A DNA stretch of 64,000 nt from Stieleria neptunia (GTDB lineage Bacteria; Planctomycetota; Planctomycetia; Pirellulales; Pirellulaceae), in NCBI RefSeq assembly GCF_007754155.1, contig NZ_CP037423.1, positions 8,366,938-8,430,937 of the forward strand, in the 5' to 3' direction. A program made the translations under genes and the position numbers. The notes under the pieces are model-generated. The model was not told where the DNA came from. It made no database searches and saw only the letters and a program-made list of their open reading frames with translations. Shown here in pieces: positions 1 through 12,411 of the stretch (position 1 is its first letter; each line of letters opens with the position of its first letter).

Positions 1-3000
1 ATCGTTCTGGGGCGTGACGTTCAGCTGAATCAACCCGTCGACGGGGCCGTCGCCCAGGGAGTCTCGGACGCGGACGGTGATTTGCGAATCGATGTCGTTG
101 TCGGTCGCCGGTGTGAAGGCGACCGCAGCCAGGGCGGCGTTCACATCTGTGACACCGCCGGTGACCGTCCACACTCCGCTGCCGCCGTTGTACGTGCTGG
201 TCGACGCCCCGAACGTTCCGGTGGTCAATGCCCCGGTCGCTGGCAAGTTCAAGGTCAACGTTGCGGTGATCGTCTGGCCGCCGTCGGGATCCGTCACCAC
301 GATGTCGTCCAGGGCGACACCGGCGTCGCCTTCGGTGTAGTTCTTCGATTGGTTCAGATTGGTGGCCAGCGGAATCGTATTCGGTGTCGAGGTGACGGTC
401 ACTTGATGTGTCGGCGTGAATGTCATTCCCTTCGGATCGAACAGCCCCGTGATGTAAGAGTCCACGAAATTCCCCGACGTGTCGTAGCGCACGATCCGCT
501 GATTCCAATGGTCGGTGACGTAAACGTAGTCGTCCGCCCCGAACGTGATTCCGAAGGGTTCGTTTAACCCGCCGAGTCCCGCGGTAACAAAGGTATCGAG
601 AAACGCTCCGGTCGTGCCGTTGTAACGCAAGACTTCATCGGTAAGAAACGAAGCGACATAAAAATTCCCGTCGGCACCGAAGGCAAACGATGTCGGCGTG
701 TCCAGACCACCCGAACCGGCCGAGACGAAATCATCGACATAGGCTCCGGTGGTACCGTTGAAACGCAAAACGCTATTGGATTGTGCACTCGCAACGTACA
801 AGTAGCCATCATCGCCGAAGAAGATTTTGCGAGTTCCATCGAGCCCGCCGGATCCCGCGGTCACAAAGGCATCGATAAAGGCGCCGGTCGTTCCGTCGTA
901 CCGCAACACCTCATCACTTGAAAAGCTGCCGACGTAGAGGTTACCGTCTGGTCCGAACGCCATCCCGCTCGCACCGTCTAGTCCCCCACTACGCGCCGCG
1001 ACGAAATCTCCATCTAAGACGCCGGTGACCGGATCGAATCGCTGGACCTTGTCGCTGTTGAATGCGGACACATAGAGTTGCCCATCCGGACCGATGAGGA
1101 TCTCTTCGGCATACTTCAATTGATTGAACACACCGGTCGATAGTTCAAATGCGCCGGTCAAGGCGTCGTAGCGGTGGACCGGTGTCCCGGTCGCATTGGC
1201 CAGGAACAGATCCCCGGTCAGCCACTTGCCGTCTTCGTCGGTTGCCGAGACGAGGATGTTACGCGTCAGCCCGGCAACGTTGTACGTGTGATTGACGCTG
1301 GTGGCGGTTCCCGCGTGCGTGGTGATCGTTCCGTCGCCCCAATCGACCCGCCATTCGGCGAGGGTGTCATCGCCAGGGTCGTTGGCGGAGAGATTCAGCG
1401 TGTAGGTGGCGCCCTGGGCGACCGAAGCGTTGCCGGAGACGATCAGCGACGGGGCGGTGTTGTTGACCGTGATGGTTGTGGTCTGGGTCGTGACACCGCC
1501 GTTTCCGTCGTCGACTTGCAATCCGATCGTGTAGGTCCCGTCATCGTCGATCCCGAAACTGGACAGCGTCGCCCAATCGACGCTCGCCGTCGCGGTCGTC
1601 GGTTCGTCGGTTTCGCCAAAGTTTCCGTCGTTGTCCAAATCCCAGGCAAACGTCAGCGTGTCGCCGTTCGCATCGGAGGAGTTGGAACCGTTGAGCGAAA
1701 GCGAGCCGCCTTCGCTGATCGTGTAGGGGGCGCCGGCGGACAGATCCGCCACGGGAGCGGTGTTGCCGACAACGGCCGTTCCGTACTGCCTGGCGAAGAC
1801 GCCAGCCGAGTCCACTTGCCCGGTTTGGTCACCCTGGCCGCTCCAGACCACCACAAAATTGTCCAGGTCGTGCATCGCAACCGACGCGTTGATCTGTGAT
1901 CCGGACGTCGATTGACTCACGCTGGTGACGCTGCCGATCTGCGTCTCGGCCGCGTTGAAGGCAACGGATTTCACCCCCAATCCGCTACCGTCCAACTGCA
2001 AGAAACTGATCACGTAATTGCCCGCTGCATCCATCGCGATCGAGGGGGCTTCTGCCGAACTGGCCGAAATGATGCGTTCCGGAAAGATCAGCGTTCCATC
2101 ATCCTGGACCGTTCGCGTCCAAATTCCTTGGGCAACGAAGGTGTCCTCTCGGTAGACCACGATGTAATCGTTGTTCGGTTTGACCGCGATCGCGAGCTGT
2201 CGGTCGATCGCTCCGGGGTAGTTGACGTCGAGTTTCGAATTCAACGCCGTCGCGGATCCGAAATCGTATTTCCGCGCGTACGCGGCCGAACCGTCCTTCC
2301 AGAGCACCACGAATCGTCCGCCCTCGTTGATGTCGATCACGGCGTTCTCCGCCGGAGAGTCGGTATCGACGGTCAGCAGTGTCGTCGACAAAGCATTCCC
2401 GGCCGGCGTGGACGTGTAGTCAAAATTGCGGGCGAAGATTCCCTCGGTCGCGCCGCTACTTTCCCACGACAGCACGATTTGGTTGGCGCTGTTACTGGCA
2501 ATGGAAACGTTGGTTTGGTTTCCCGCCTGCGAACCCGCGTTGACCAGAATGTCCGCGGCATCGATCGCTGCTCCGCTGGCATCGTACCGACGGACGTAGA
2601 TGCCGGTCCCATCGGCATCGGCTGAAACGTAGGCGATCGCGAATCGGCCGCTGGCATCGGCGGTGACCACCGGCAAGGTCTGATCACCGACGGTGTTGAC
2701 GTTGACCTGGAATTGCCCTCCCAGCTTTGCCCCCGTGGCATCAAAACGCTGCGCCATCACCGCGGTTCCGTTCAGATCGGCACTGTAGTCGATCCAGGTG
2801 ACGATGCTGTTGCCGAGCCCATCGACCGCCACCGCCTGCTGGGCTTTTAGGATCGATTGATTCCCCGTCGCTGGCGAATTGACGAGTGTTTCGTCTGTGG
2901 TCGAGATTTCCGGAGTCGCGAGCAGTCCACTCCACGTCGCATCGTAGGATTCGGCAAGGATCGGATTGGATTCAATCCGTCCCGTCGCAAATTCCAATTC

Positions 3001-3696
3001 CCAGTCCCCGCCGAGCGATCCGCTGCCGGTGTCATCGATCGACGCGGCGACGTCCGCACCGGTCAGTGCGGCAAGCCCCTCGATCATCGTCTGTCCGGCG
3101 GCCGTTTCGGCTAACTCACAGCCATACAACAACACGTCCGCTTCATCGCTCAGCGAGGCTCCCCAAGTCGCCAATTCGCCCGCGTATCCGGCCAGACTGC
3201 CCTCGTCCAACACGCTGTCGCCGAGGCGAAGTTTACCGTCGTTGCCATGCGAAAGCACATGAATCGCGTCGACATCCGTGTAGCCGTCCAGGATCTCGCC
3301 GATTTGAAGGACGCCGTCACGCGTCGCGTCGAGCAAATAGATCTCCAAATCGGCGTGCTCGTTTCCGGCCCGCAGATCATCGATCAATTGTTGATAGTCT
3401 TGGACGCCCGCGTCGACGAACACCAACTCCAGCCGCCCGCTTCCCTGTCCGTCTTGGTCCGTGTCAGCACTCGGATTGCCAGTCGCAGCGCCAGTCGATG
3501 CCGCGTCCGAGAGACTCGGATCGACCCGTGTCGTTTCGTCCGATACAGCGTCCGGTGAGACGTCGTCGACCTGCGGGGGTGCGATCGGGGTGGCGCTGAA
3601 CAACAGACGCCGTTCCAACACGGCAGCGTCGAGCAGGTATCCGGTAGAACGGACAACTCCTGGGTCAGCTTTTGATGTTCGTTTACGCCAGTGCAC
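1..3696 (-). CDS. Giant LEPR-XLL/DUF4347 surface protein (N-terminal part, runs off left edge)
   Basis: An open frame continues leftward to base 1, so the C-terminus is missing; about 1,232 residues are visible. Domains in order: LEPR-XLL-like motif (LERRLLFSA, about residue 35); DUF4347 (about 85-245) with LSHGNDGKL and LLYGCELA; a propeller-like stretch of short VVWSG/FVVLWKDG-type repeats (about 275-635); PKD-like domains (about 650-805); NHL repeats of about 48 residues with GSGGLD and LRYNGTTGAF (about 850-1080); then a cadherin-like repeat containing YTEGDAGVALDD. Proteins of this architecture are very large secreted or surface proteins of planctomycetes. No classical signal peptide is seen. 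The start is uncertain: no ATG lies in frame between the upstream stop (near 3853) and the LEPR motif, so GTG at 3696 is taken. It is divergent from the TolC/HlyD cluster, suggesting a functional link. Confidence 0.85.
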   Translation of the reverse strand, partial: MHWRKRTSKADPGVVRSTGYLLDAAVLERRLLFSATPIAPPQVDDVSPDAVSDETTRVDPSLSDAASTGAATGNPSADTDQDGQGSGRLELVFVDAGVQDYQQLIDDLRAGNEHADLEIYLLDATRDGVLQIGEILDGYTDVDAIHVLSHGNDGKLRLGDSVLDEGSLAGYAGELATWGASLSDEADVLLYGCELAETAAGQTMIEGLAALTGADVAASIDDTGSGSLGGDWELEFATGRIESNPILAESYDATWSGLLATPEISTTDETLVNSPATGNQSILKAQQAVAVDGLGNSIVTWIDYSADLNGTAVMAQRFDATGAKLGGQFQVNVNTVGDQTLPVVTADASGRFAIAYVSADADGTGIYVRRYDASGAAIDAADILVNAGSQAGNQTNVSIASNSANQIVLSWESSGATEGIFARNFDYTSTPAGNALSTTLLTVDTDSPAENAVIDINEGGRFVVLWKDGSAAYARKYDFGSATALNSKLDVNYPGAIDRQLAIAVKPNNDYIVVYREDTFVAQGIWTRTVQDDGTLIFPERIISASSAEAPSIAMDAAGNYVISFLQLDGSGLGVKSVAFNAAETQIGSVTSVSQSTSGSQINASVAMHDLDNFVVVWSGQGDQTGQVDSAGVFARQYGTAVVGNTAPVADLSAGAPYTISEGGSLSLNGSNSSDANGDTLTFAWDLDNDGNFGETDEPTTATASVDWATLSSFGIDDDGTYTIGLQVDDGNGGVTTQTTTITVNNTAPSLIVSGNASVAQGATYTLNLSANDPGDDTLAEWRVDWGDGTITTHAGTATSVNHTYNVAGLTRNILVSATDEDGKWLTGDLFLANATGTPVHRYDALTGAFELSTGVFNQLKYAEEILIGPDGQLYVSAFNSDKVQRFDPVTGVLDGDFVAARSGGLDGASGMAFGPDGNLYVGSFSSDEVLRYDGTTGAFIDAFVTAGSGGLDGTRKIFFGDDGYLYVASAQSNSVLRFNGTTGAYVDDFVSAGSGGLDTPTSFAFGADGNFYVASFLTDEVLRYNGTTGAFLDTFVTAGLGGLNEPFGITFGADDYVYVTDHWNQRIVRYDTSGNFVDSYITGLFDPKGMTFTPTHQVTVTSTPNTIPLATNLNQSKNYTEGDAGVALDDIVVTDPDGGQTITATLTLNLPATGALTTGTFGASTSTYNGGSGVWTVTGGVTDVNAALAAVAFTPATDNDIDSQITVRVRDSLGDGPVDGLIQLNVTPQND

Positions 3697-3985
3697 TTCG
3701 AGGACCCGACAGTTCAGATGAGTGGGATGATCCGCTCCATCGAACCCTAAGTCATCATGTGACTGAAAGACGCCGCCGGAGCCGGATGGCGTGTAACATC
3801 GGGGCAAGACGTAACGATTGCAACGCCTGGGCGAGTGCTGAAGAGACTGTCACTCATTCCGAGCATGCATGGCCCCGTCCGAATTGCGGCCGGCTTGTGA
3901 CGTCTGCCGGAAGCCAACGGCGGTCTTTCGAACCGATGAACGACCAAAGTCTCTCGCGTCATCAACTCCACGGATGGAGTGTTCC
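3697..3985. promoter_or_regulatory. Divergent intergenic region between giant surface protein and tolC-like gene
   Basis: This 289-bp spacer must hold the promoters of both the giant protein (leftward) and the export cluster (rightward). A small inverted repeat GTCA-5-TGAC is present at 3751-3763. No clear sigma-70 or sigma-54 boxes were recognised. GGAG at 3976-3979 is the likely ribosome-binding site of the tolC-like gene. Confidence 0.4.
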
Positions 3986-5902
3986 ATGGATCCAACCGCT
4001 CGCAAATGCTACCTCGCGATCGCGACCTGCTGCTGGGTCGTCGGATCGGTCTTTGCGCAAGCGGACGATTTGCCTTCTTGGCTCACTGCGCCACCCTCAC
4101 AGACGGAACACCCCCGAGATCCCGCAACGGAATTGACAGAGGTTTTCGCCGAACCGGTCGTCGTCGACACGGCCCGCCACGGCGTCCGGGTGGCCCAAAA
4201 CTCCGCCCCACCGTCGACCGCAGCGGCGACGGCCCCGCCCCCCTTGACGGTCGGCGCGTTGCCGGACGAATGGCTGAACGAAACGTCGATCTCCACGTCC
4301 GACTCCAATGTCCCCCTTTCGCCCGAGTCGGTACGGCAGTTTTTGAAGTCTCAGGCCGACGGCTCGCCGATCGCGGACGACTTTCGACCGTGGTGGGAAA
4401 CCACCGCGACGGCGCCCTTCGAATTGTCGCCGTCCTCCATCGTCGTCGATGGAGACAGTCTGATCCTGGAAACCCTGCGACACAGCTATCGCATCTCGGC
4501 GCTGAATGAAAACATCTGCATCGCACGCACCGGGATCACGCGTGCGGCCGCCGATTTCGATCCGACCGCCTTTGTCGAATCAAAATTCATTCGCACCAGC
4601 GTCCCGACCGGGAGCGAGCTTGATGCCGGCAATAATGTCGACCGCTTGAGAGAAGAAGATTTTTCGTTTTCCGGCGGCCTGCGGCAGCGACTTCAAACCG
4701 GAGCCGAGTTCGAGATCGGACAACAGATCGGCCTGCGCGACAGCAGTTCACAGTTTTTCACGCCGAACAATCAAGGCAATTCTCGGCTGACGCTCAGCTT
4801 CAATCAACCGCTGCTCAACGGCGCCGGCCGGGCATTCAATCGAAGCCTGATCGTGTTGGCAAAGCTGGACACCCAAATCGCAAACGAAGCCGCCACCACG
4901 GCGATCCAAGATCACTTGCTTTCCGTCCAGGAATCGATGTGGAATCTGTATTACCAGCGCGCGTCGCTGCTGTTGCGGATCCGTCACCTCAATCAAGCCA
5001 AATCGATTCATGATTGGCTGGAAAACCGACAGGGCTTGGATGCGTTGCAAAGCCAACTGAAACGCGCCGAAGCGGCCATCGCGACGCGTCAATCCGAGCT
5101 TGCCCGGGCAGTGACGTCGATTCGAAACGCGGAAGACCAGCTCCGCATGCTCGTCAACTCCCCCGGACTGACCAGCGACAAAACGGCGGAGATCATCCCC
5201 GCCCGGCCCCCCTCGCTGACCCTGGTCCCCGTCTCATTGGAAGACGCCGTCGTCACGGCGCTGCAACAGCGGAGTGAAATGAATGAAGTGGCGCGTGAAT
5301 TGGACACCGCGCGGGTTCGTTTGAACGCCGCCCGAAACGAACTGCTGCCCATGTTGGACTTGGTGTTGGAAACCTATTTCAGCGGGTTGCGGGGCAGCCA
5401 AGACATCGGCCGCGCCTGGACCGACCAGTTCAGCGTCGGCGAACCGAGCTACACCGCCGGGCTGCGGTTTGAAGTGCCGTTGCAGCGACGGGCGGCCAAG
5501 GCAAACGTGATGCGTCGACAAGCCGAGCTGCGGAAACTCGCCAGCCGCTTGAGTGAAACGATCGCCAAACTGCACGCCGAGGTCGCCGCGGCCGTGCGTG
5601 AAGTCGAAACCAGCCACCGGGAACTCGGGGCACGCTACGTGGCGATGGTTTCCGCACAGGAATATGTCGAACTGATCTCCAATCGATGGCGTGAACTGCC
5701 CGGAGACGGTTATTCGGCCAACTCCCTGTTGGAGGACTTGCTCGATGCCCAAGATCGCTTGTTGCTGGAGGAAGTCGGGTTCGCCAGGGCGCAGATTGAC
5801 TACACGCTCAGCACGTCACGGCTCAAACGGGCGACCGGCACGCTGTTGCAGATCGAGCCGATCGGGTCGGGGCCCGATGCGGCTGAATCGATGCCGCGCT
5901 GA
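3986..5902 (+). CDS. TolC-like outer-membrane efflux protein
   Basis: A 638-aa protein of the outer membrane factor family, which forms trimeric channels through the outer membrane and periplasm. Start ATG 3986 is preferred because GGAG lies 6 nt upstream and the resulting N-terminus is a signal peptide (YLAIATCCWVVGSVFAQA); ATG 3974 is also in frame. Residues about 25-190 form a Pro/Ser/Thr-rich leader plus a globular segment. The family repeats follow, with SFNQPLLNGAGRAFNR near residue 270 and long amphipathic helices (about 300-430 and 440-630) of the type that build the coiled-coil tunnel. It heads a cluster with three HlyD-containing proteins but no ABC or RND pump. The N-terminal extension is longer than in E. 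coli TolC. Confidence 0.85.
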   Translation: MDPTARKCYLAIATCCWVVGSVFAQADDLPSWLTAPPSQTEHPRDPATELTEVFAEPVVVDTARHGVRVAQNSAPPSTAAATAPPPLTVGALPDEWLNETSISTSDSNVPLSPESVRQFLKSQADGSPIADDFRPWWETTATAPFELSPSSIVVDGDSLILETLRHSYRISALNENICIARTGITRAAADFDPTAFVESKFIRTSVPTGSELDAGNNVDRLREEDFSFSGGLRQRLQTGAEFEIGQQIGLRDSSSQFFTPNNQGNSRLTLSFNQPLLNGAGRAFNRSLIVLAKLDTQIANEAATTAIQDHLLSVQESMWNLYYQRASLLLRIRHLNQAKSIHDWLENRQGLDALQSQLKRAEAAIATRQSELARAVTSIRNAEDQLRMLVNSPGLTSDKTAEIIPARPPSLTLVPVSLEDAVVTALQQRSEMNEVARELDTARVRLNAARNELLPMLDLVLETYFSGLRGSQDIGRAWTDQFSVGEPSYTAGLRFEVPLQRRAAKANVMRRQAELRKLASRLSETIAKLHAEVAAAVREVETSHRELGARYVAMVSAQEYVELISNRWRELPGDGYSANSLLEDLLDAQDRLLLEEVGFARAQIDYTLSTSRLKRATGTLLQIEPIGSGPDAAESMPR

Positions 5903-6170
5903 CGGGCACCGGGTATTGAATCTCGTTGGTGTCTCGCCTCCAGGGACCGTCCCGCTCAGGGCGACCGATTTCCCCAGTACGATGGCCCTTCCGGGCCGTC
6001 GTCCCGAGGGCTCGCCCCGACGACCTAAAACGGTCCGCTCGCCGCATCACACTCAATCGACCAGATCATTGGTTTTGGCTGCTTATTGGTGACCTAAGCT
6101 TGCCCAGAGCAAGTGATTCTTGCCGCCCGCCCTTGTTTTCCCGGTCTCCATTCGTGCTTCACGCGACGCC
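5903..6170. repeat. Gap with one GGCCCTTCCGGGCC palindromic repeat (5977-6038)
   Basis: Between the tolC-like gene and the adaptor lies a 268-bp gap. It contains one copy of the interspersed palindromic element: left half GTACGATGGCCCTTCCGGGC at 5977, right half CGACGACCT around 6018-6027. No gene was seen. The repeat may form a hairpin in the mRNA and separate tolC expression from the downstream adaptor genes. Confidence 0.7.
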
Positions 6171-7004
6171 ATGAAACTCTGTCACCAACCCTCTGACCTG
6201 CGAATCCGCCCACTCCCATCCGTCCTGATCGCGGTCCTCGCCCTGTCCTGTCGGGTTTCCCTCGCCACCGAAGTCCAGGGATACACCGAGCCGATCCGGA
6301 CGATCGAAGTGGCATCGGATGAAACAGGGACGGTCGCCGAAGTGTTGGTCCGACAAGGCCAAAAAGTCGAGCAAGACCAGCCGCTGCTGCGGCTCAACAG
6401 CCAAGTCCACTTGGCCCAGTTGGAGGTCGCCAAACAACAGATGAATGCCGAAGGGCGTCTCGATGCCGCGCGGGCGGAAGTCGAATTGACCTCCCAACGA
6501 TTGAAAACACTCGAATCACTGCGCCAGTCGGGACACGCCCGCCGAGCCGAACTCCAACGCGCGGCCAAAGAATTCCAAGTCGCCCAAGCCAATCTACGCA
6601 GCGTCGTCGAAGAAATGGAAACGCGTCGATTGGAACACCAACGATTGCTCACGCAAATGGAGCGACGCGTGATCCATGCCCCCGTCAGCGGAATCGTCAC
6701 GGAGCTTCATAAAGAACCCGGTGAGTTCGTCGCGCCCAATAAACCCGACGTCGTCACGCTCGTCCAGCTGGACACGCTGCTGGCCAATTTCTCACTTCTC
6801 GGCCCCCAAGCCGAGCAGCTGACCACCGGCCAAGCCATCCAACTTCAATTCGGTGAATCCGGTCAATCGATCTCCGGCGTGGTCCACTTCATCTCGCCGG
6901 TGACCGATGCCGAAAGCGGTACCGTCCTGGTCAAAATCGCAATCAGCAATCCGGACGGAACCCTACGTAGCGGTGCCCGCTGCACGATCCGATTAAAGGA
7001 TTGA
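6171..7004 (+). CDS. HlyD/RND-type periplasmic adaptor (membrane fusion protein), short form
   Basis: A 277-aa adaptor. Start ATG 6171 gives a signal peptide ending near SCRVSLA; an in-frame ATG at 6120 would add 17 residues before it. The first lipoyl-like half motif is GTVAEVLVRQGQKVEQDQPL (about residues 55-75), then an alpha-helical hairpin (about 85-165), the second half motif HAPVSGIVTELHKEPGEFV (about 168-186), and a beta-barrel domain ending at RCTIRLKD. Family proteins bridge inner-membrane pumps to TolC channels. It lacks a C-terminal membrane-proximal extension. The next gene starts 6 nt after its stop, so the two are probably co-transcribed. Confidence 0.85.
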   Translation: MKLCHQPSDLRIRPLPSVLIAVLALSCRVSLATEVQGYTEPIRTIEVASDETGTVAEVLVRQGQKVEQDQPLLRLNSQVHLAQLEVAKQQMNAEGRLDAARAEVELTSQRLKTLESLRQSGHARRAELQRAAKEFQVAQANLRSVVEEMETRRLEHQRLLTQMERRVIHAPVSGIVTELHKEPGEFVAPNKPDVVTLVQLDTLLANFSLLGPQAEQLTTGQAIQLQFGESGQSISGVVHFISPVTDAESGTVLVKIAISNPDGTLRSGARCTIRLKD

Positions 7005-7010
7005 TCTGCC

Positions 7011-8906
7011 GTGTCGACCGAGATTCCCAACGGCGGATCATGCCCCACGGCCCCGATCCTGGTCGGCGCCGTCACACGCCAGACCGCCCCGCAACCTGCG
7101 GTCGCGGTCGGCGACGTCAACACGCACCGCGACGCGGTCGATCCGCCGGTCGCTTCACCCTTTCATTCTGCGAACACGCTCCAGGATGCACACCTGGTGC
7201 TGCTCGAATGCCTGGACAAACTCTCCGGCATCCTTGCGGCGGTGCACTTTGCCCCGAACGCACCCGACGAATCGACGCGGCTGCAACCTTTGCGGGTCGA
7301 TCCGAGCGACCGGACGGCCCAATCGCAACGGACGCAATTGACATCGGTCTGTCAGCAATCCGCCCAGAGCGGCCAAATTCATTCCCGCCGCCAACTCGAT
7401 CCCGAACGAGTGATCCTTGCCGTTCCGATGGCAAGTGGACGGCAACCGTCCGAAGCGTTGGGATTGATCGCCGCGTTGCCAGCGGACTTGCACGGCTTCA
7501 CCCGATCGGTCGAAACCCTGGCCCGACAGTTCGCCCTGTGGACGCTTCAGCATCGTCTGGATCAACAGTCCGCCGTCGCGTCGGATGCCGCCGCCACGGT
7601 CGAGCTGCTCACCCGAGCCCTGGATTCAAAAAACCGTAACGAAGCCTGCCAGGTGATCGTCACCGAACTGGCCGATCACTGGAAACTCCGCCGCGCGGCG
7701 ATCGGCGTCGCGCGCTCCGCCGCGGGCAGTTGCCGATTGGTCGCGCTCAGCGATTCGACGCGGATCGATACGACCACCGCCCAGACACGGGCCATCGAGA
7801 ACGCCATGGACGAAGCGTTGATGCGGGGGTCCATCTCGATCGTCCAGCCGACCGATCACGGACTCGATGCGTCACGCAGCGCCGGCGAACTGGCGCGCCA
7901 ACATGCCGCCGGCGTGCTGATCGTTCCGCTCGTCGATCCATCCCGAGACACGCGCGCCGTGTTTCTGGCGATCCTGGATTCGGAGTCACGTGTCGATCCG
8001 CTGCGACAGTTCTTCAACGCCGCCAGCGAATCGCTCGGCGCGGTCGTGAATGCACTCGATCAACGTCGTTCCACTGATTTTGTTCGTCGCGGCGGCCGCG
8101 CGATCCGATCGCGCGGCGGCGTGATTGCGTTGACGCTCATGGTCGCGGTGATCGCCGCCATGTTCGTTCCGCTACGTCATCGTGAAACCTGTGACGTGCG
8201 CGTCGAACCCCGCTTCAAACGTTTCGTGGCCGCCCCCTTCGACGCGACGCTCAAGGACTGTTTCGTCGCGCCCGGCGACCTTGTCCGACAGGGCGATCTG
8301 TTGGCGACGCTGGACGGCCGGGAATTGAGCTGGCAACGAGACGCCCTGCAGGCCGATCATGACCAGGCGATCAAAAAACGCGACGCCGCCCAGGCCTCAC
8401 GCGCCTACGCCGATCAGCGGATCGCCCAGTTGGAAATCGACGGGCTTCGATCAGAGCTTCAATTGCTGGATCTCCGACTCAGCGAACTCGAACTCCGCAG
8501 CCCTGTCGATGGGATGGTCGTCAGCGGTGATTTAAAACGCGTCCAAGGCGCCCCACTGACCACCGGGCAGTCGCTCTTTGAAATCGCGCCGCTGGAGGAA
8601 ATGATCGTCGAGGCGGCGGTCAATGACGATCAGATCGCGTATGTCCGCAGGGACCAGTCCGCTCAATTGCGACTGAACGCTTATCCCAATCGCATCTGGG
8701 ACACCACGATCGGAATCGTTCATCCACGCAGTGAAATTCGTGACGAAGAGAACGTGTTCATCGCCGAATGCAGGCTTTCCAACACCGAACAATTGTTGCG
8801 TCCCGGAATGAAAGGCTCGCTGAAGATCGGATGTGGTCGTCGCGCACTCGGCTGGATCCTGTTTCACCGACCCATCGAATCCCTCTCACAATGGTTCTGG
8901 TGGTGA
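7011..8906 (+). CDS. GAF-domain/HlyD fusion protein, membrane-anchored adaptor
   Basis: A 631-aa protein starting with GTG 6 nt after the previous stop. Residues about 1-190 are poorly defined. A GAF-like domain spans about 193-351, one transmembrane segment about 371-388 (VIALTLMVAVIAAMFVPL), then a HlyD module with lipoyl half motifs (FDATLKDCFVAPGDLVRQGD, and LRSPVDGMVVSGDL) and a C-terminal beta-barrel (about 395-620). The predicted topology puts GAF in the cytoplasm and HlyD in the periplasm. GAF domains bind small ligands such as cyclic nucleotides, so ligand-controlled adaptor function is inferred, not shown. Its 3' end overlaps or abuts the M50-HlyD gene, indicating translational coupling. 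Confidence 0.8.
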   Translation: MSTEIPNGGSCPTAPILVGAVTRQTAPQPAVAVGDVNTHRDAVDPPVASPFHSANTLQDAHLVLLECLDKLSGILAAVHFAPNAPDESTRLQPLRVDPSDRTAQSQRTQLTSVCQQSAQSGQIHSRRQLDPERVILAVPMASGRQPSEALGLIAALPADLHGFTRSVETLARQFALWTLQHRLDQQSAVASDAAATVELLTRALDSKNRNEACQVIVTELADHWKLRRAAIGVARSAAGSCRLVALSDSTRIDTTTAQTRAIENAMDEALMRGSISIVQPTDHGLDASRSAGELARQHAAGVLIVPLVDPSRDTRAVFLAILDSESRVDPLRQFFNAASESLGAVVNALDQRRSTDFVRRGGRAIRSRGGVIALTLMVAVIAAMFVPLRHRETCDVRVEPRFKRFVAAPFDATLKDCFVAPGDLVRQGDLLATLDGRELSWQRDALQADHDQAIKKRDAAQASRAYADQRIAQLEIDGLRSELQLLDLRLSELELRSPVDGMVVSGDLKRVQGAPLTTGQSLFEIAPLEEMIVEAAVNDDQIAYVRRDQSAQLRLNAYPNRIWDTTIGIVHPRSEIRDEENVFIAECRLSNTEQLLRPGMKGSLKIGCGRRALGWILFHRPIESLSQWFWW

Positions 8907-8911
8907 ACGCC

Positions 8912-11047
8912 ATGCAGGACGACCACGAGCATTTTGCCAGCGACCAAAGCACAACGTCCGTTGTCTTTCGCCAAGATCTACGTGTGACACCGTGCGACGA
9001 TGCACGGCAACCCCACGTGGTCGTCGAAGACCCCGTCGCGGGCTCGTTTTACCGACTCGGGAAAATCGAGTACGCGTTGGCCATTCGGCTGACCGCCTCG
9101 CGGACGATCGCCCAGGCCTATCGTGAACTGTGCGAACAATCGCCCGACCATTCATTGTCCGAAGAGGATGCGGCAGACCTGTGTCGGTGGCTGATCTCCA
9201 ACGAACTGGCACACACCGAGTCCTCCAAGTCCTCCGCCCGACTCCAACGCTCTGCCGAAAAAGCGAAAACGAATCGAATCAAGCAGCACGCCAATCCGAT
9301 CGCGATACGCGTTCCACTGCTGCATCCCGATCAGATGGTCGGGCGGATGATGAAGTACGTGGGCTGGATCTTCGGGCTTCCAGCGACCGCGGCGGGCATG
9401 TTGCTGATCCTGCTCGGCGGCTGCCTGGCGATCCAGCATTGGGACGATCTGACGCATTCCTCGCAGTACTTGTTCTCACCCTCGGCGCTGTACCTGTTGA
9501 TCGCCGTCACCGTCGTTTTGAAGATCCTCCACGAGTTTGCCCATGCGATCGTTTGCAAACGCTACGGGGGCGACGTCGGCCAGATGGGCGTGCTGTTCAT
9601 TTTGCTCGCGCCACTCGCCTACGTCGACGTCAGTTCGGTGTGGCGATTTCGTCGCCGCTGGCAACGCATTCACGTCGCATCGGCGGGGATCTATCTCGAA
9701 TTGCTGGTCGCGGCCATCGCGATGTTGATTTGGCAATCCGTCGAATCCCCGCTGGTCAAACATGTGTGCATCAGCGTGATGTTGTCGGCGGGCGTGGCGA
9801 CGTTGATTTTTAATGCCAATCCGCTGATGAAATTCGATGGCTACTTTGTGTTGACCGATTGGGCGCGGGCGCCGAACCTGTACACGGACAGCCAGAACTA
9901 CTTGGCTCGCCTGGCCCGACGGTGGTTCTTCGGCGGTGAGTTGAAAGAACCGAAATGGCAATCCGGCTATCGCTTCGCGGTTGCCGTCTACGCCTGGCTG
10001 GCGCTGCTGTGGAAGTGTTTCGTTTGTTTCGGGTTGACGATTGCCGCGTCAAAACTCTTTCACGGCTTGGGCACATTGCTGGCCGTCACCGCCTGTGTCG
10101 GATGGATCGGCGTCCCCGCCTGGCGGGTCGTTCAATTGTTCCGCAAGGCTCCCTCCGCCGGACGCCGTCGATTCACGTGCGTGGCGACCGCATCGGCGGC
10201 ATTGCTGGCCACGTTGTTGGCGGCGATCCCATGGCCGGGCGCCGCCCCCGTCCCCGCCGTGGTCGAGTATTCACCGCACGACGTGATTCGCGCCGAAGTC
10301 CCGGGCTTTGTTGACACGATTCACGTCTCCGCGGGACAACGGGTGTCTCAGGGCGAACCACTGTTGACGCTCCGCAACCCCGACCTGGTCCTGGACGCGC
10401 AGAAGCTGGAAACCAAAATCCAGCAATCCACCCTCCGCACCCGCCAACAAACGCTGCAAGGTCGGCACGCCGCCGCCCAAGCCGAGGAAACCGAACTGCA
10501 GGCACTGACGAAACAGCACCGAGAAACGACCGAACAAATCGATGCCCTGATCGTCCGCGCTCCCCGCAGCGGTGTCGTCGTCCGGCGGCGGTTGAATGAA
10601 TTGAAGGGCACCTATGTCGCCCAGGGTGATGACTTGCTGGTGATCGGAGATGAATCTCAAAAAGAGTTGCGTGTGCTGATCTCGCAAGAACGGTTCGACC
10701 AGTTTCGGGACCAGGTGGGTGCGGCGGTGCGATATCGCGCCCGCGGACACGCGACGAACACTTCGTCCCTGACAAAGATCATTCCCCGGGCCAGAACGGG
10801 GATAGACTACCCGGCCCTGCTGGCCTGCAACGGCGGCCCCTTGCCGGTCAAGAAAGTCGCCAACGAGACGTCGCAATCCGGCTCGGAATTCGAACTGCTG
10901 GTGCCGCATTTCGAGGCCATTGTTCCGCTCAGCGCTTCGCAAGGCGTTGATCTGTTCAGCGGACAGCGCGCCCAAGTCTCGATCGGATCACTCGACGAGA
11001 CCGTCGGATCGCACCTGTGGCGGATGCTGACCGAGTGGATGCAGTAG
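8912..11047 (+). CDS. PqqD-like / site-2 protease (M50) / HlyD fusion protein
   Basis: A 711-aa multi-pass membrane protein. Residues about 16-100 resemble a PqqD-like winged-helix peptide-binding domain. The M50 metalloprotease core has the zinc motif HEFAH in the segment LKILHEFAHAIVCKRYGGD (about 205-225) and the distal ligand motif NPLMKFDGYF (about 307-316) within several TM helices. After further TM segments comes a periplasmic HlyD module: PGFVDTIHVSAGQRVSQGEP, a coiled-coil hairpin, and RAPRSGVVVRRRLNELKGTY. Related M50-HlyD proteins are annotated as efflux adaptors in other bacteria. Start ATG 8912 follows the preceding stop (8904-8906); ATG 8891 and GTG 8903 are in-frame alternatives. 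Active-site residues look intact. Substrate unknown; the adjacent giant surface protein is a candidate. Confidence 0.8.
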   Translation: MQDDHEHFASDQSTTSVVFRQDLRVTPCDDARQPHVVVEDPVAGSFYRLGKIEYALAIRLTASRTIAQAYRELCEQSPDHSLSEEDAADLCRWLISNELAHTESSKSSARLQRSAEKAKTNRIKQHANPIAIRVPLLHPDQMVGRMMKYVGWIFGLPATAAGMLLILLGGCLAIQHWDDLTHSSQYLFSPSALYLLIAVTVVLKILHEFAHAIVCKRYGGDVGQMGVLFILLAPLAYVDVSSVWRFRRRWQRIHVASAGIYLELLVAAIAMLIWQSVESPLVKHVCISVMLSAGVATLIFNANPLMKFDGYFVLTDWARAPNLYTDSQNYLARLARRWFFGGELKEPKWQSGYRFAVAVYAWLALLWKCFVCFGLTIAASKLFHGLGTLLAVTACVGWIGVPAWRVVQLFRKAPSAGRRRFTCVATASAALLATLLAAIPWPGAAPVPAVVEYSPHDVIRAEVPGFVDTIHVSAGQRVSQGEPLLTLRNPDLVLDAQKLETKIQQSTLRTRQQTLQGRHAAAQAEETELQALTKQHRETTEQIDALIVRAPRSGVVVRRRLNELKGTYVAQGDDLLVIGDESQKELRVLISQERFDQFRDQVGAAVRYRARGHATNTSSLTKIIPRARTGIDYPALLACNGGPLPVKKVANETSQSGSEFELLVPHFEAIVPLSASQGVDLFSGQRAQVSIGSLDETVGSHLWRMLTEWMQ

Positions 11048-11229
11048 ATTCATGCCGGGGAGCGTTCATCCGGTCCTAACGGATCTAACGAAAACGAGGG
11101 ACCTGCGTTGAAAATCCATTTTGTTCGCCGGGCATGCCCTCGCAACATCAGCTCCCAGCCCGACACCTTGACTTACGGTTTGCTGCGGGCCCAGCTCGCG
11201 CGAAATTTCCCAGTCAACCCGAAGGGCGG

Positions 11230-12411
11230 ATGAACGCAACGACTCCATCAACGTTGGCCGCTGCTGCGGCACCCATGACACGCGCTGCTTCGTTGAAGTC
11301 GAAGGAGACCGATGCGACGAAGTCCGGCCGCGTCATGATCGCCGATGACGAGCCGATCAACATCAAGTTGATTCAGAAGTATCTGCGCAGCTCGGGGTAC
11401 CATGATTTTGTCACCACCAGCGAGTCTCGCGAGGTGGTCGATTTGGTGCGTTCGACACGTCCGGACATCCTGGTCTTGGATGTGGTGATGCCGCACGTCA
11501 CGGGGCTGGAAATCCTGGAGACGATTCGCAACACGCCCGACCAGTCCCATCTGCCGGTCCTGATCGTGACGGCGTCGACGGACGAACAAACCAAGATCGA
11601 TGCGCTCGAATTGGGTGCCACCGACTTTTTGCATAAACCGGTCAAGCCCACCGAACTATTGCCCCGGGTCCGCAACTCGTTGGTGCTGAAAGCGCACCAC
11701 GACCAGATGGCCGCCTACTCCAAACGACTCGAAGCCGAAGTCGCCCAGCGGACCGCCGACCTGGCCCAATCGCGTGAAGAGGTCATCCATGTCCTGGCAT
11801 GTGCCGCCGAATACCGCGACCAGGAAACCGGCAACCACGTCATTCGAGTCGGCCGATTCGCGGGAATCATCGCCAGAGAACTGGGGTGCTCGGAATCCGA
11901 TTCCGAATTGATCGAACACGCCGCCATCCTTCACGATGCCGGTAAGATCGGCATCGCCGATTCGATTCTGTTGAAACCGGACAAGCTTTCCCAGGACGAG
12001 TTCGCGATGATGAAGCGTCACTGCGAGTTCGGAGAAAAAATCCTCAAAGCCCAACCGAGCGACGAAAGCGAACCGTTTCTGTTGCATTCCCGTCGCCCCG
12101 TCACCCGGTCACCCGTGTTGCGGATGGCTTCGGTGATCGCCAAAACTCACCACGAACGCTGGGACGGGACGGGTTACCCGCAACAGCTCGCCGGCGAAGA
12201 AATCCCGATCGTCGGCCGCATCACCGCCGTCGCGGATGTCTTCGATGCCCTCAGCAGCAAACGCTGTTACAAAGACGCCTTGCCACTGGATCAATGCATC
12301 CAAATCATGCGCAAGGAACGCGGCAAACATTTTGACCCCAAGGTCTTGGACGCGTTTCTGTCCCGCATGGACGAAGTGACGCAGATCGTCGTCAGCTTGG
12401 CCGACCAGTAA
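11230..12411 (+). CDS. Response regulator with HD-GYP domain (probable c-di-GMP phosphodiesterase)
   Basis: A 393-aa RpfG-type regulator. ATG 11230 is preceded by GAAGGGCGG, a good ribosome-binding site. The receiver domain (about residues 36-155) has the phospho-acceptor Asp in ILVLDVVMP and the conserved Lys in FLHKPVKP. A linker helix (about 160-190) leads to HD-GYP (about 195-385) with HD in AILHDAGKIGIAD and the GYP motif in RWDGTGYPQQL. HD-GYP proteins hydrolyse c-di-GMP and control biofilm and adhesin output. It lies 182 bp downstream of the export cluster on the same strand, so a regulatory link is plausible. The cognate kinase is not adjacent. Confidence 0.9.
   Translation: MNATTPSTLAAAAAPMTRAASLKSKETDATKSGRVMIADDEPINIKLIQKYLRSSGYHDFVTTSESREVVDLVRSTRPDILVLDVVMPHVTGLEILETIRNTPDQSHLPVLIVTASTDEQTKIDALELGATDFLHKPVKPTELLPRVRNSLVLKAHHDQMAAYSKRLEAEVAQRTADLAQSREEVIHVLACAAEYRDQETGNHVIRVGRFAGIIARELGCSESDSELIEHAAILHDAGKIGIADSILLKPDKLSQDEFAMMKRHCEFGEKILKAQPSDESEPFLLHSRRPVTRSPVLRMASVIAKTHHERWDGTGYPQQLAGEEIPIVGRITAVADVFDALSSKRCYKDALPLDQCIQIMRKERGKHFDPKVLDAFLSRMDEVTQIVVSLADQ

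Follow-up and report, generated by a model that had tools for sequence, protein, structure and literature searches.

An N-terminal sequence motif was reportedly proposed as an export signal by Studholme in 2004. Motifs of the LExRxLLA or RRLxxExLExRxLLA type have been treated as a putative export signal, and Tuwongella immobilis possesses 52 genes with a related motif, the products of 20 of which were detected, 8 of them in the sodium dodecyl sulfate-soluble fraction only (PMC8567305). Kamneva, Poudel and Ward described in 2015 a secondary SecA_DEAD and type I secretion-related locus, present in Planctomycetes, Verrucomicrobia, Proteobacteria, Nitrospirae and Chlorobi (PMC4452313). They proposed SecA as its ATPase and the M50 protein as a possible pore, allowed that some of the parts may be located elsewhere in the genome, and called the role of the locus 'completely unknown'; no cargo was found named in that article, whose main text contains no match to the terms LEPR, DUF4347 or giant. 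Here we present a gene cluster located at the beginning of a 64,000-nucleotide stretch of Stieleria neptunia DNA (contig NZ_CP037423.1, positions 8,366,938 to 8,430,937 of the forward strand; referred to below as the window), in which a gene for a giant protein with an LEPR-type motif and a DUF4347 domain adjoins a set of genes resembling the locus of 2015. Our comparisons suggest that the unassigned export signal and the unassigned secretion machine belong together, across very different bacteria. It is probable that the cluster is a cargo-linked locus of a secretion route dedicated to giants that bear a LExRxLL(S/D)A tag near the N-terminus. We infer export from the following observations: (i) the gene content of the locus, (ii) the co-occurrence and (iii) the adjacency of the two gene sets, (iv) the correlation between tag and machine, (v) a conserved C-terminal module of the giants, and (vi) a linked kinase gene.

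The locus described in 2015 comprises a fusion of an M50 membrane metalloprotease with a HlyD-type adaptor (M50-HlyD), a GAF-HlyD fusion, a HlyD protein and sometimes an outer-membrane channel (OEP), and has no ATP-binding cassette (ABC) component (PMC4452313). The window cluster shares M50-HlyD, HlyD and OEP with it, has no flagged ABC signature and has no SecA in cis; it is a SecA-less-in-cis relative of that locus and no strict member of it. The set is encoded on the plus strand (open reading frames, ORFs, are longest-frame picks) and consists of (i) a TolC/OEP channel (3869..5902; PF02321, 70 bits; likely start at 3974 or 3986), (ii) a HlyD-type adaptor (6171..7004; PF16576 and PF13437, with TIGR01730 over cut-off), (iii) a HlyD fusion (7011..8906), in which HlyD was detected behind a long N-terminal part and which has a single strongly hydrophobic stretch near residue 364, and (iv) M50-HlyD (8768..11047; PF02163, 30.8 bits against a cut-off of 27.2), which contains the HExxH and NPxxxxDG motifs and whose true start, judged by eye, is probably near 8891-8912.

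The giant is encoded divergently, on the minus strand. Its first 1,269 codons lie within the window (1..3807) and the frame then leaves it; in the host genome (G000) it forms an open frame of 2,023 codons (8364673-8370744). The start is uncertain: the N-termini of homologues favour a GTG at 3696 (codon 38), and the protein-database entry of 1,961 amino acids (aa) begins at codon 63. The LEPR-XLL motif LERRLLF(SA), the proposed export tag (3598..3618), matches NF012209 at 17.7 bits (cut-off 17) in the genome search, with 16.3 and 15.7 bits for fragments, and the N-terminus has no match to PF07595 (Planc_extracel) at E ≤ 10; weak PF07595 matches of 14-17 bits (cut-off 25.5) were obtained with three LEPR giants, two from Neptuniibacter and the third from gammaproteobacterium G194. 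No signal peptide was recognised by eye. The tag is followed by DUF4347 (2920..3426; PF14252, 178.7 bits), PKD domains (1270..1764; PF18911, PF00801) and an NHL/Vgb-lyase-like propeller (382..1101; PF24684, 32.4 bits, below the cut-off of 50). The C-terminus, outside the window, consists of a conserved hydrophobic module and an acidic tail.

This arrangement, an LEPR-XLL/DUF4347 giant divergent from TolC, HlyD, HlyD-fusion and M50-HlyD genes, had been described in an earlier note on this DNA, and the ORFs and domain matches agree with it. Of the two fused HlyD-type proteins named there, the HlyD fusion and M50-HlyD were both borne out, and the GAF domain was not detected: the fusion has no Pfam match to GAF, which is present in 19 of 31 aligned relatives. 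The PqqD-like domain attributed to M50-HlyD was not detected either; among 52 aligned M50-HlyD proteins, PqqD was recognised in seven, and the protein of the window is not one of these. As for the ABC pump that the note did not see, a signature scan covering the 36 kb ahead of the window and its first 24 kb flagged no such ORF.

The association between giants and machine was determined in 276 gammaproteobacterial genomes, drawn evenly, with DUF4347 scored over its cut-off, M50-HlyD at E ≤ 1e-60, and a Fisher test. DUF4347 was found in 35 genomes, M50-HlyD in 37 and both in 26 (4.7 expected; p=1.9e-20), i.e. M50-HlyD occurs in 26/35 genomes with DUF4347 vs 11/241 others. Omission of the two genomes that had been reached through M50-HlyD loci (G118 and G138) leaves 24/33 (p=5.9e-19). 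The two genes share a contig in 14 of the 26 genomes and are on different contigs in the other 12; 12 of the 14 same-contig pairs are at most 5 kb apart (0.07 expected), and in G235 and G392 M50-HlyD lies past the end of a giant of 8,630 and 10,477 codons, respectively. A search independent of DUF4347 (LEPR-8K, over cut-off) gave a comparable result, with M50-HlyD in 25/31 LEPR genomes vs 12/245 others (p=4.6e-21); of the six LEPR-8K genomes without M50-HlyD, four have ORFs of 99-350 aa and the others are G211 and G334. LEPR and M50-HlyD are on one contig in 15 of the 25 genomes, and at most 6 kb apart in 14. DUF4347 was rejected as a general cargo mark, since the LEPR tag tracks M50-HlyD also in genomes free of DUF4347 (6/8 with an LEPR ORF of at least 400 aa vs 5/233 others; p=4.9e-8). 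The type I ABC protein LssB, used as a control (50 genomes over cut-off), showed no significant association with DUF4347 (10/35, p=0.07) or with M50-HlyD (7/37, p=0.52), and is not found over cut-off in the host; a type I ABC partner was therefore rejected as the common rule. The link between giants and M50-HlyD, for which the earlier note had proposed such a test, is very strong in the gammaproteobacteria and recurs in several phyla. The gammaproteobacteria also contain LEPR frames of 14,112, 13,848 and 12,249 codons (G357, G194 and G236); in G357, five LEPR giants were counted along with two M50-HlyD genes.

The tag itself follows the machine. In genomes with M50-HlyD, DUF4347 has an LEPR-type motif ahead of it at 26 of 28 sites, vs 2 of 8 sites in genomes without M50-HlyD (p=3.6e-4). 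The data in which this pattern was first noticed also served for the test, and the motif definition was loosened after inspection of the N-termini; with the stricter definition, in the first set, the motif was present at 17 of 21 sites of M50-HlyD genomes. The two motif-less sites of the 28 are L320, a 297-base stretch at a contig end, and L317 (G212). Of the six tagless sites in genomes without M50-HlyD, four (L267, L269, L272, L274) start in a signal-peptide-like manner, judged by eye and hydropathy, and two (L266, L270) start at the domain. Two entries were left out: G205, with DUF4347 below cut-off, from the 36 genomes, and G329:C109, at 22 bits, from the 28 sites. For the tag test only, G197 was no longer treated as M50-negative, and it still counts as such in the 26/35 figure; in this gammaproteobacterium M50-HlyD is split over two frames and adjoins an LEPR/DUF4347 giant (L268).

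A scan with the seven M50-HlyD paralogues of the host matched at least 590 places, the best 80 of which were treated as named loci. These span Planctomycetota, Verrucomicrobiota, several classes of Proteobacteria, Thermodesulfobacteriota, Nitrospirota, Chlorobiota and a few others; several of them, and of the 20 fetched DUF4347 regions, are cut by contig ends. According to local models grown from fetched proteins, which supplied the OEP, HlyD, M50-HlyD, SecA and DUF4347 labels outside the window, the best 80 loci contain a SecA-like gene in 41 cases, OEP in 28 and DUF4347 in 15; a DUF4347 or LEPR-type ORF is present in 23, one of which (L147) is probably spurious. The earlier note would have been contradicted by an ABC pump beside the cluster in relatives, and an ABC signature was flagged in just 3 of the 80. 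Its proposal that the cluster is ATPase-less, with the protease replacing the pump, fared less well: the SecA-like genes of the 41 loci rule this out as a family trait, and another M50-HlyD cluster of the host also has one. Among loci with more than 6 kb on both sides, a SecA-like gene is present in 26 of 46. Taken together, the association claimed by the note is real and general, and its mechanism is partly wrong and partly already published, so that the note is partly supported.

The commonest proteobacterial gene order, pieced together, is giant, GAF-HlyD, M50-HlyD, SecA, HlyD, LEPR giant. A counterpart of the window locus was found in Rhodopirellula JC639, where OEP, giant, kinase, HlyD, fusion, M50-HlyD and regulator are all located within approximately 26 kb. 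The products are 80% (second giant, 1,557 aligned residues), 85% (kinase), 80% (OEP), 82% (HlyD), 65% (fusion) and 73% (M50-HlyD) identical to those of the window locus; OEP, giant and kinase are inverted relative to the window, a few unrelated genes separate the kinase from HlyD, and the nearby flanking genes correspond by eye. Neptuniibacter caesariensis has two M50-HlyD loci in one genome (L133, L286, L293): the first contains a SecA-like gene and an LEPR giant (7,974-codon frame) in which DUF4347 was not found, and the second, with no SecA match in 20 kb, contains an LEPR/DUF4347 giant with the C-terminal module.

The host chromosome carries seven M50-HlyD genes and eleven DUF4347 genes, which are scattered. 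In a second giant-linked cluster, at 2.70 Mb (L054/L063; 2684030-2713480), M50-HlyD, HlyD, GAF-HlyD and OEP are accompanied by a giant of 4,638 aa with an initial LETRRVL and by a protein of 2,050 aa. Three SecA genes were identified, encoding proteins of 1,238 aa (full-length type), 755 aa and 646 aa. The 755 aa gene has no HlyD-type gene in the surrounding 20 kb; the 646 aa gene (10760764-10762704) lies inside the M50-HlyD cluster at 10.76 Mb, and a quick tree placed it with SecA genes from M50-HlyD loci of other planctomycetes. Elsewhere in the chromosome, four tandem LEPR/DUF4347 giants of 4,360, 3,915, 2,367 and 4,046 aa (9694334-9739056; L043-L045, L064) have the C-terminal module, with no M50-HlyD in the fetched stretch and no kinase directly behind, and a 10,549 aa open frame (10553675-10585324; L058, L059) has an N-terminal LEDRHLL and, by eye, a dockerin-like end.

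The predicted structure of DUF4347 (predicted local distance difference test, pLDDT, 93.7) matches the caspase-like fold (clan CD), and H68 and C111 are kept in 53 of 54 sequences. On this modelled structure, DUF4347 is a caspase-like domain with an intact His-Cys pair, a predicted cysteine peptidase. A sequence search of the PDB with a single DUF4347 sequence gave no useful lead, nor did matches to designed TIM barrels. The same domain fold is found in the DUF4347 protein Tce1 (PA0256, PDB 9qpe), for which its authors propose a His-Cys cysteine protease; Tce1 is a free-standing effector of a type VI secretion system, whereas DUF4347 forms the N-terminal part of a giant here (PMC13323088).

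In 52 aligned M50-HlyD proteins H255, E256, N351, P352 and D357 are invariant, and H259 and G358 are kept in at least 90%. The predicted structure (pLDDT 84.2) combines a membrane half made of helices with an adaptor half, of which residues 486-753 fold like MacA/MexA adaptors; such matches filled the M50-HlyD fold search. Six SecA-like proteins were scanned and contain the SecA_DEAD, P-loop and cross-linking domains, with SecA_SW absent from all six at E ≤ 0.001. GEGK[TS] is kept in all 48 SecA sequences longer than 500 aa, the three of the host among them.

The C-terminal module of the giants reads approximately GYVxWxxRxGxL...LPxWxxxDPLxxL and continues into an acidic tail that contains (D/E)xSLxx. 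It is present in 7 of the 11 host DUF4347 proteins, in giants of JC639, L071, L209, L211 and Neptuniibacter (G118), and in L281, an LEPR giant without DUF4347, and L106, a Nitrospirota giant. A protein search with the module, which sees proteins of similar length only, returned 19 proteins, all of them with PF14252. In 6 of 7 host giants no other part of the protein is as hydrophobic as the module, the exception being giant 2, in which a Kyte-Doolittle scan did not flag it; 5 of 11 module sequences reach the cut-off of 1.6 over 19 residues. From its sequence, the module could be a membrane hairpin.

A second LEPR/DUF4347 giant (2,810 aa) is located directly behind the first, just outside the window, and is overlapped by 4 nt by a gene for a 994 aa hybrid histidine kinase (PAS-HisKA-HATPase-receiver-Hpt). 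A kinase gene lies directly behind the giant (-4 to +24 nt) in 7 of 9 loci with a visible downstream gene, in Planctomycetota, one gammaproteobacterium and one Nitrospirota genome; the exceptions are the host gene at 3.02 Mb and the host array of four giants. Neptuniibacter is outside this count, its downstream gene not being visible. The kinases share an N-terminus in which two hydrophobic stretches, spaced by about 110 residues, precede LDPSxxIPxRVxxALD; those outside JC639 are 22-36% identical to the kinase of the window locus over 180 residues, and contig or region boundaries truncate several of the seven kinase frames. The kinase reads as a dedicated partner of the giant. Its possible output is the response regulator encoded behind M50-HlyD (11134..12411, plus strand; PF00072, PF13487), which has an HD-GYP-type HD domain and scores 152.6 bits against NF053512 (cut-off 400). 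In L069 M50-HlyD is likewise followed by a counterpart of this regulator, the two matching at 797 bits. GGDEF and/or HD-GYP-type (cyclic di-GMP) proteins recur beside M50-HlyD clusters, as at L052 (6183922-6186321), at L293 (G118 905722-906999, by eye) and in the window (11134-12411).

If the cluster is a dedicated secretion route, the LEPR tag would replace a signal peptide. Its recognition would take place at the inner membrane, where the PqqD-like/M50 part may be responsible. A SecA paralogue, which roughly half of the named loci encode in cis, would drive ATP-dependent threading of the giant, N-terminus first, through a periplasmic conduit formed by M50-HlyD, the HlyD fusion and HlyD and leading to TolC. 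A channel role of the M50 half was already inferred in 2015 (PMC4452313). The M50 protease and the caspase-like DUF4347 may process the tag or the cargo, and giants that end in the C-terminal module would come to rest at the inner membrane, still threaded to the surface. An extension of this scheme, which we regard as doubtful, is a tethered receptor spanning the envelope: after SecA-powered export N-terminus first, the module would hold the giant at the inner membrane and link the surface to the kinase, the giant would sense attachment or tension, and the kinase would signal to the HD-GYP-type regulator. The LapA adhesin is anchored by N-terminal retention, and the proposed receptor would mirror that scheme, with N-first export and C-terminal retention.

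Several findings weigh against a dedicated secretion route. The p values ignore kinship among the genomes and are thus too small by an unknown amount, and co-occurrence and adjacency are correlations, which do not prove export. G211 and G334, with LEPR ORFs of at least 400 aa, have no M50-HlyD match; G251 and G361 likewise have none, and their DUF4347 proteins bear the LEPR motif. In Planctomycetia M50-HlyD (E ≤ 1e-100) is present in 116 of 118 genomes and DUF4347 over cut-off in 20 of 118. M50-HlyD was in view at 5 of 20 fetched planctomycetial DUF4347 sites, which gives p=5e-4 if a 3.4% chance per site is assumed; the 20 were fetched from 30 distinct sites outside the host, four of the five sites of G077 and six under 70 bits being omitted, and this test has little power because M50-HlyD is nearly universal and multi-copy there. 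In the host, only the window's cluster among the seven M50-HlyD clusters adjoins DUF4347, 9 of the 11 DUF4347 genes lie elsewhere, and most M50-HlyD clusters have no recognised adjoining giant. None of the three host SecA genes is within the window, so SecA is assumed to act in trans here, and a SecA-like gene was unseen in 39 of the best 80 loci, many of them cut by contig ends. The module is borderline hydrophobic, with best 19-residue means of 1.29-1.72 in 11 sequences. Finally, a Vibrio LEPR giant has been reported with a C-terminal repeats-in-toxin (RTX) region (PMC10868602).

An alternative that we consider unlikely treats LEPR as an atypical signal peptide for housekeeping Sec: the secondary SecA would act with SecYEG, as in a SecA2-only arrangement, and the M50-HlyD machine would move giants from the periplasm to the outside. 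SecA paralogues elsewhere do act with SecYEG (PMC4452313), and pore formation by M50 is a proposal. However, the six secondary SecA proteins scanned show no SecA_SW, the seat of a wing implicated in SecYEG contact (PMC4452313). The LEPR-tagged gammaproteobacterial DUF4347 N-termini are also less hydrophobic (best 12-residue mean within the first 60 residues 0.71-1.87 at 26 sites) than the four tagless, signal-peptide-like ones (1.91-2.83), the gap being narrow.

It is improbable that the LEPR/DUF4347 giants are type I (ABC) cargo which the M50-HlyD set processes or anchors after export. The Vibrio giant with its RTX end fits this explanation, as does the gammaproteobacterium G364 (L266, L322), in which a tagless DUF4347 giant lies 8-17 kb from an LssB ABC gene, HlyD and a 2,024 aa protein with, by eye, a BapA-like N-terminus; LssB is found in 4 of the 9 DUF4347 genomes without an M50-HlyD match. 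Against it stand the LssB figures given above, including those for the host, and both giants of the window locus, which have a different C-terminal module and no GGxGxD repeats (the C-terminal RTX-type signal). On the evidence of G364, DUF4347 may be carried by two export routes, the tag deciding between them. Least probable by far is a peptide-maturation set, in which the PqqD-like and M50 parts cut a small daptide- or epipeptide-like peptide and the giants are neighbours by regulation only: the top NCBIfam match of M50-HlyD is daptide_HExxH (NF041824; 170 bits, below the cut-off of 300), YydH/LiaK scores 31.4 bits and PqqD occurs in the 7 proteins mentioned, but the association with giants spans several phyla and holds for LEPR giants in DUF4347-free genomes.

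The dedicated route that we favour resembles type I secretion of RTX adhesins (LapA/BapA) in its TolC and HlyD adaptors, giant repetitive surface proteins and a nearby regulator of the cyclic di-GMP type. It differs in having a SecA-like ATPase in place of the ABC protein and an N-terminal tag in place of a C-terminal signal, and its proposed anchor is C-terminal, whereas that of the LapA type is N-terminal. In the Gram-positive accessory Sec system (SecA2/SecY2), a dedicated SecA paralogue serves large serine-rich adhesins with atypical N-termini; the M50-HlyD system, in contrast, has two membranes to cross, a HlyD/TolC conduit and an M50 protease. SecA2 systems are mentioned in the 2015 article (PMC4452313), which also published the machine and M50 as its possible pore; new here are the assignment of cargo and tag and a link between the C-terminal module and a kinase. 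The literature that we found assigns no machine to the PF07595/NF012209 motif, which is linked here to the M50-HlyD set, and a search of the main texts of open-licence papers returned no publication joining LEPR or DUF4347 with the M50-HlyD machine.

The export-signal motif of 2004 and the SecA/M50/HlyD locus of 2015 appear to belong to a single system, each being one half of it. If this is true, several Gram-negative phyla would own a type I-like secretion route that is driven by SecA and serves giant proteins, with LEPR frames reaching 14,112 codons, and this route would come with a predicted cargo, tag and partner kinase.

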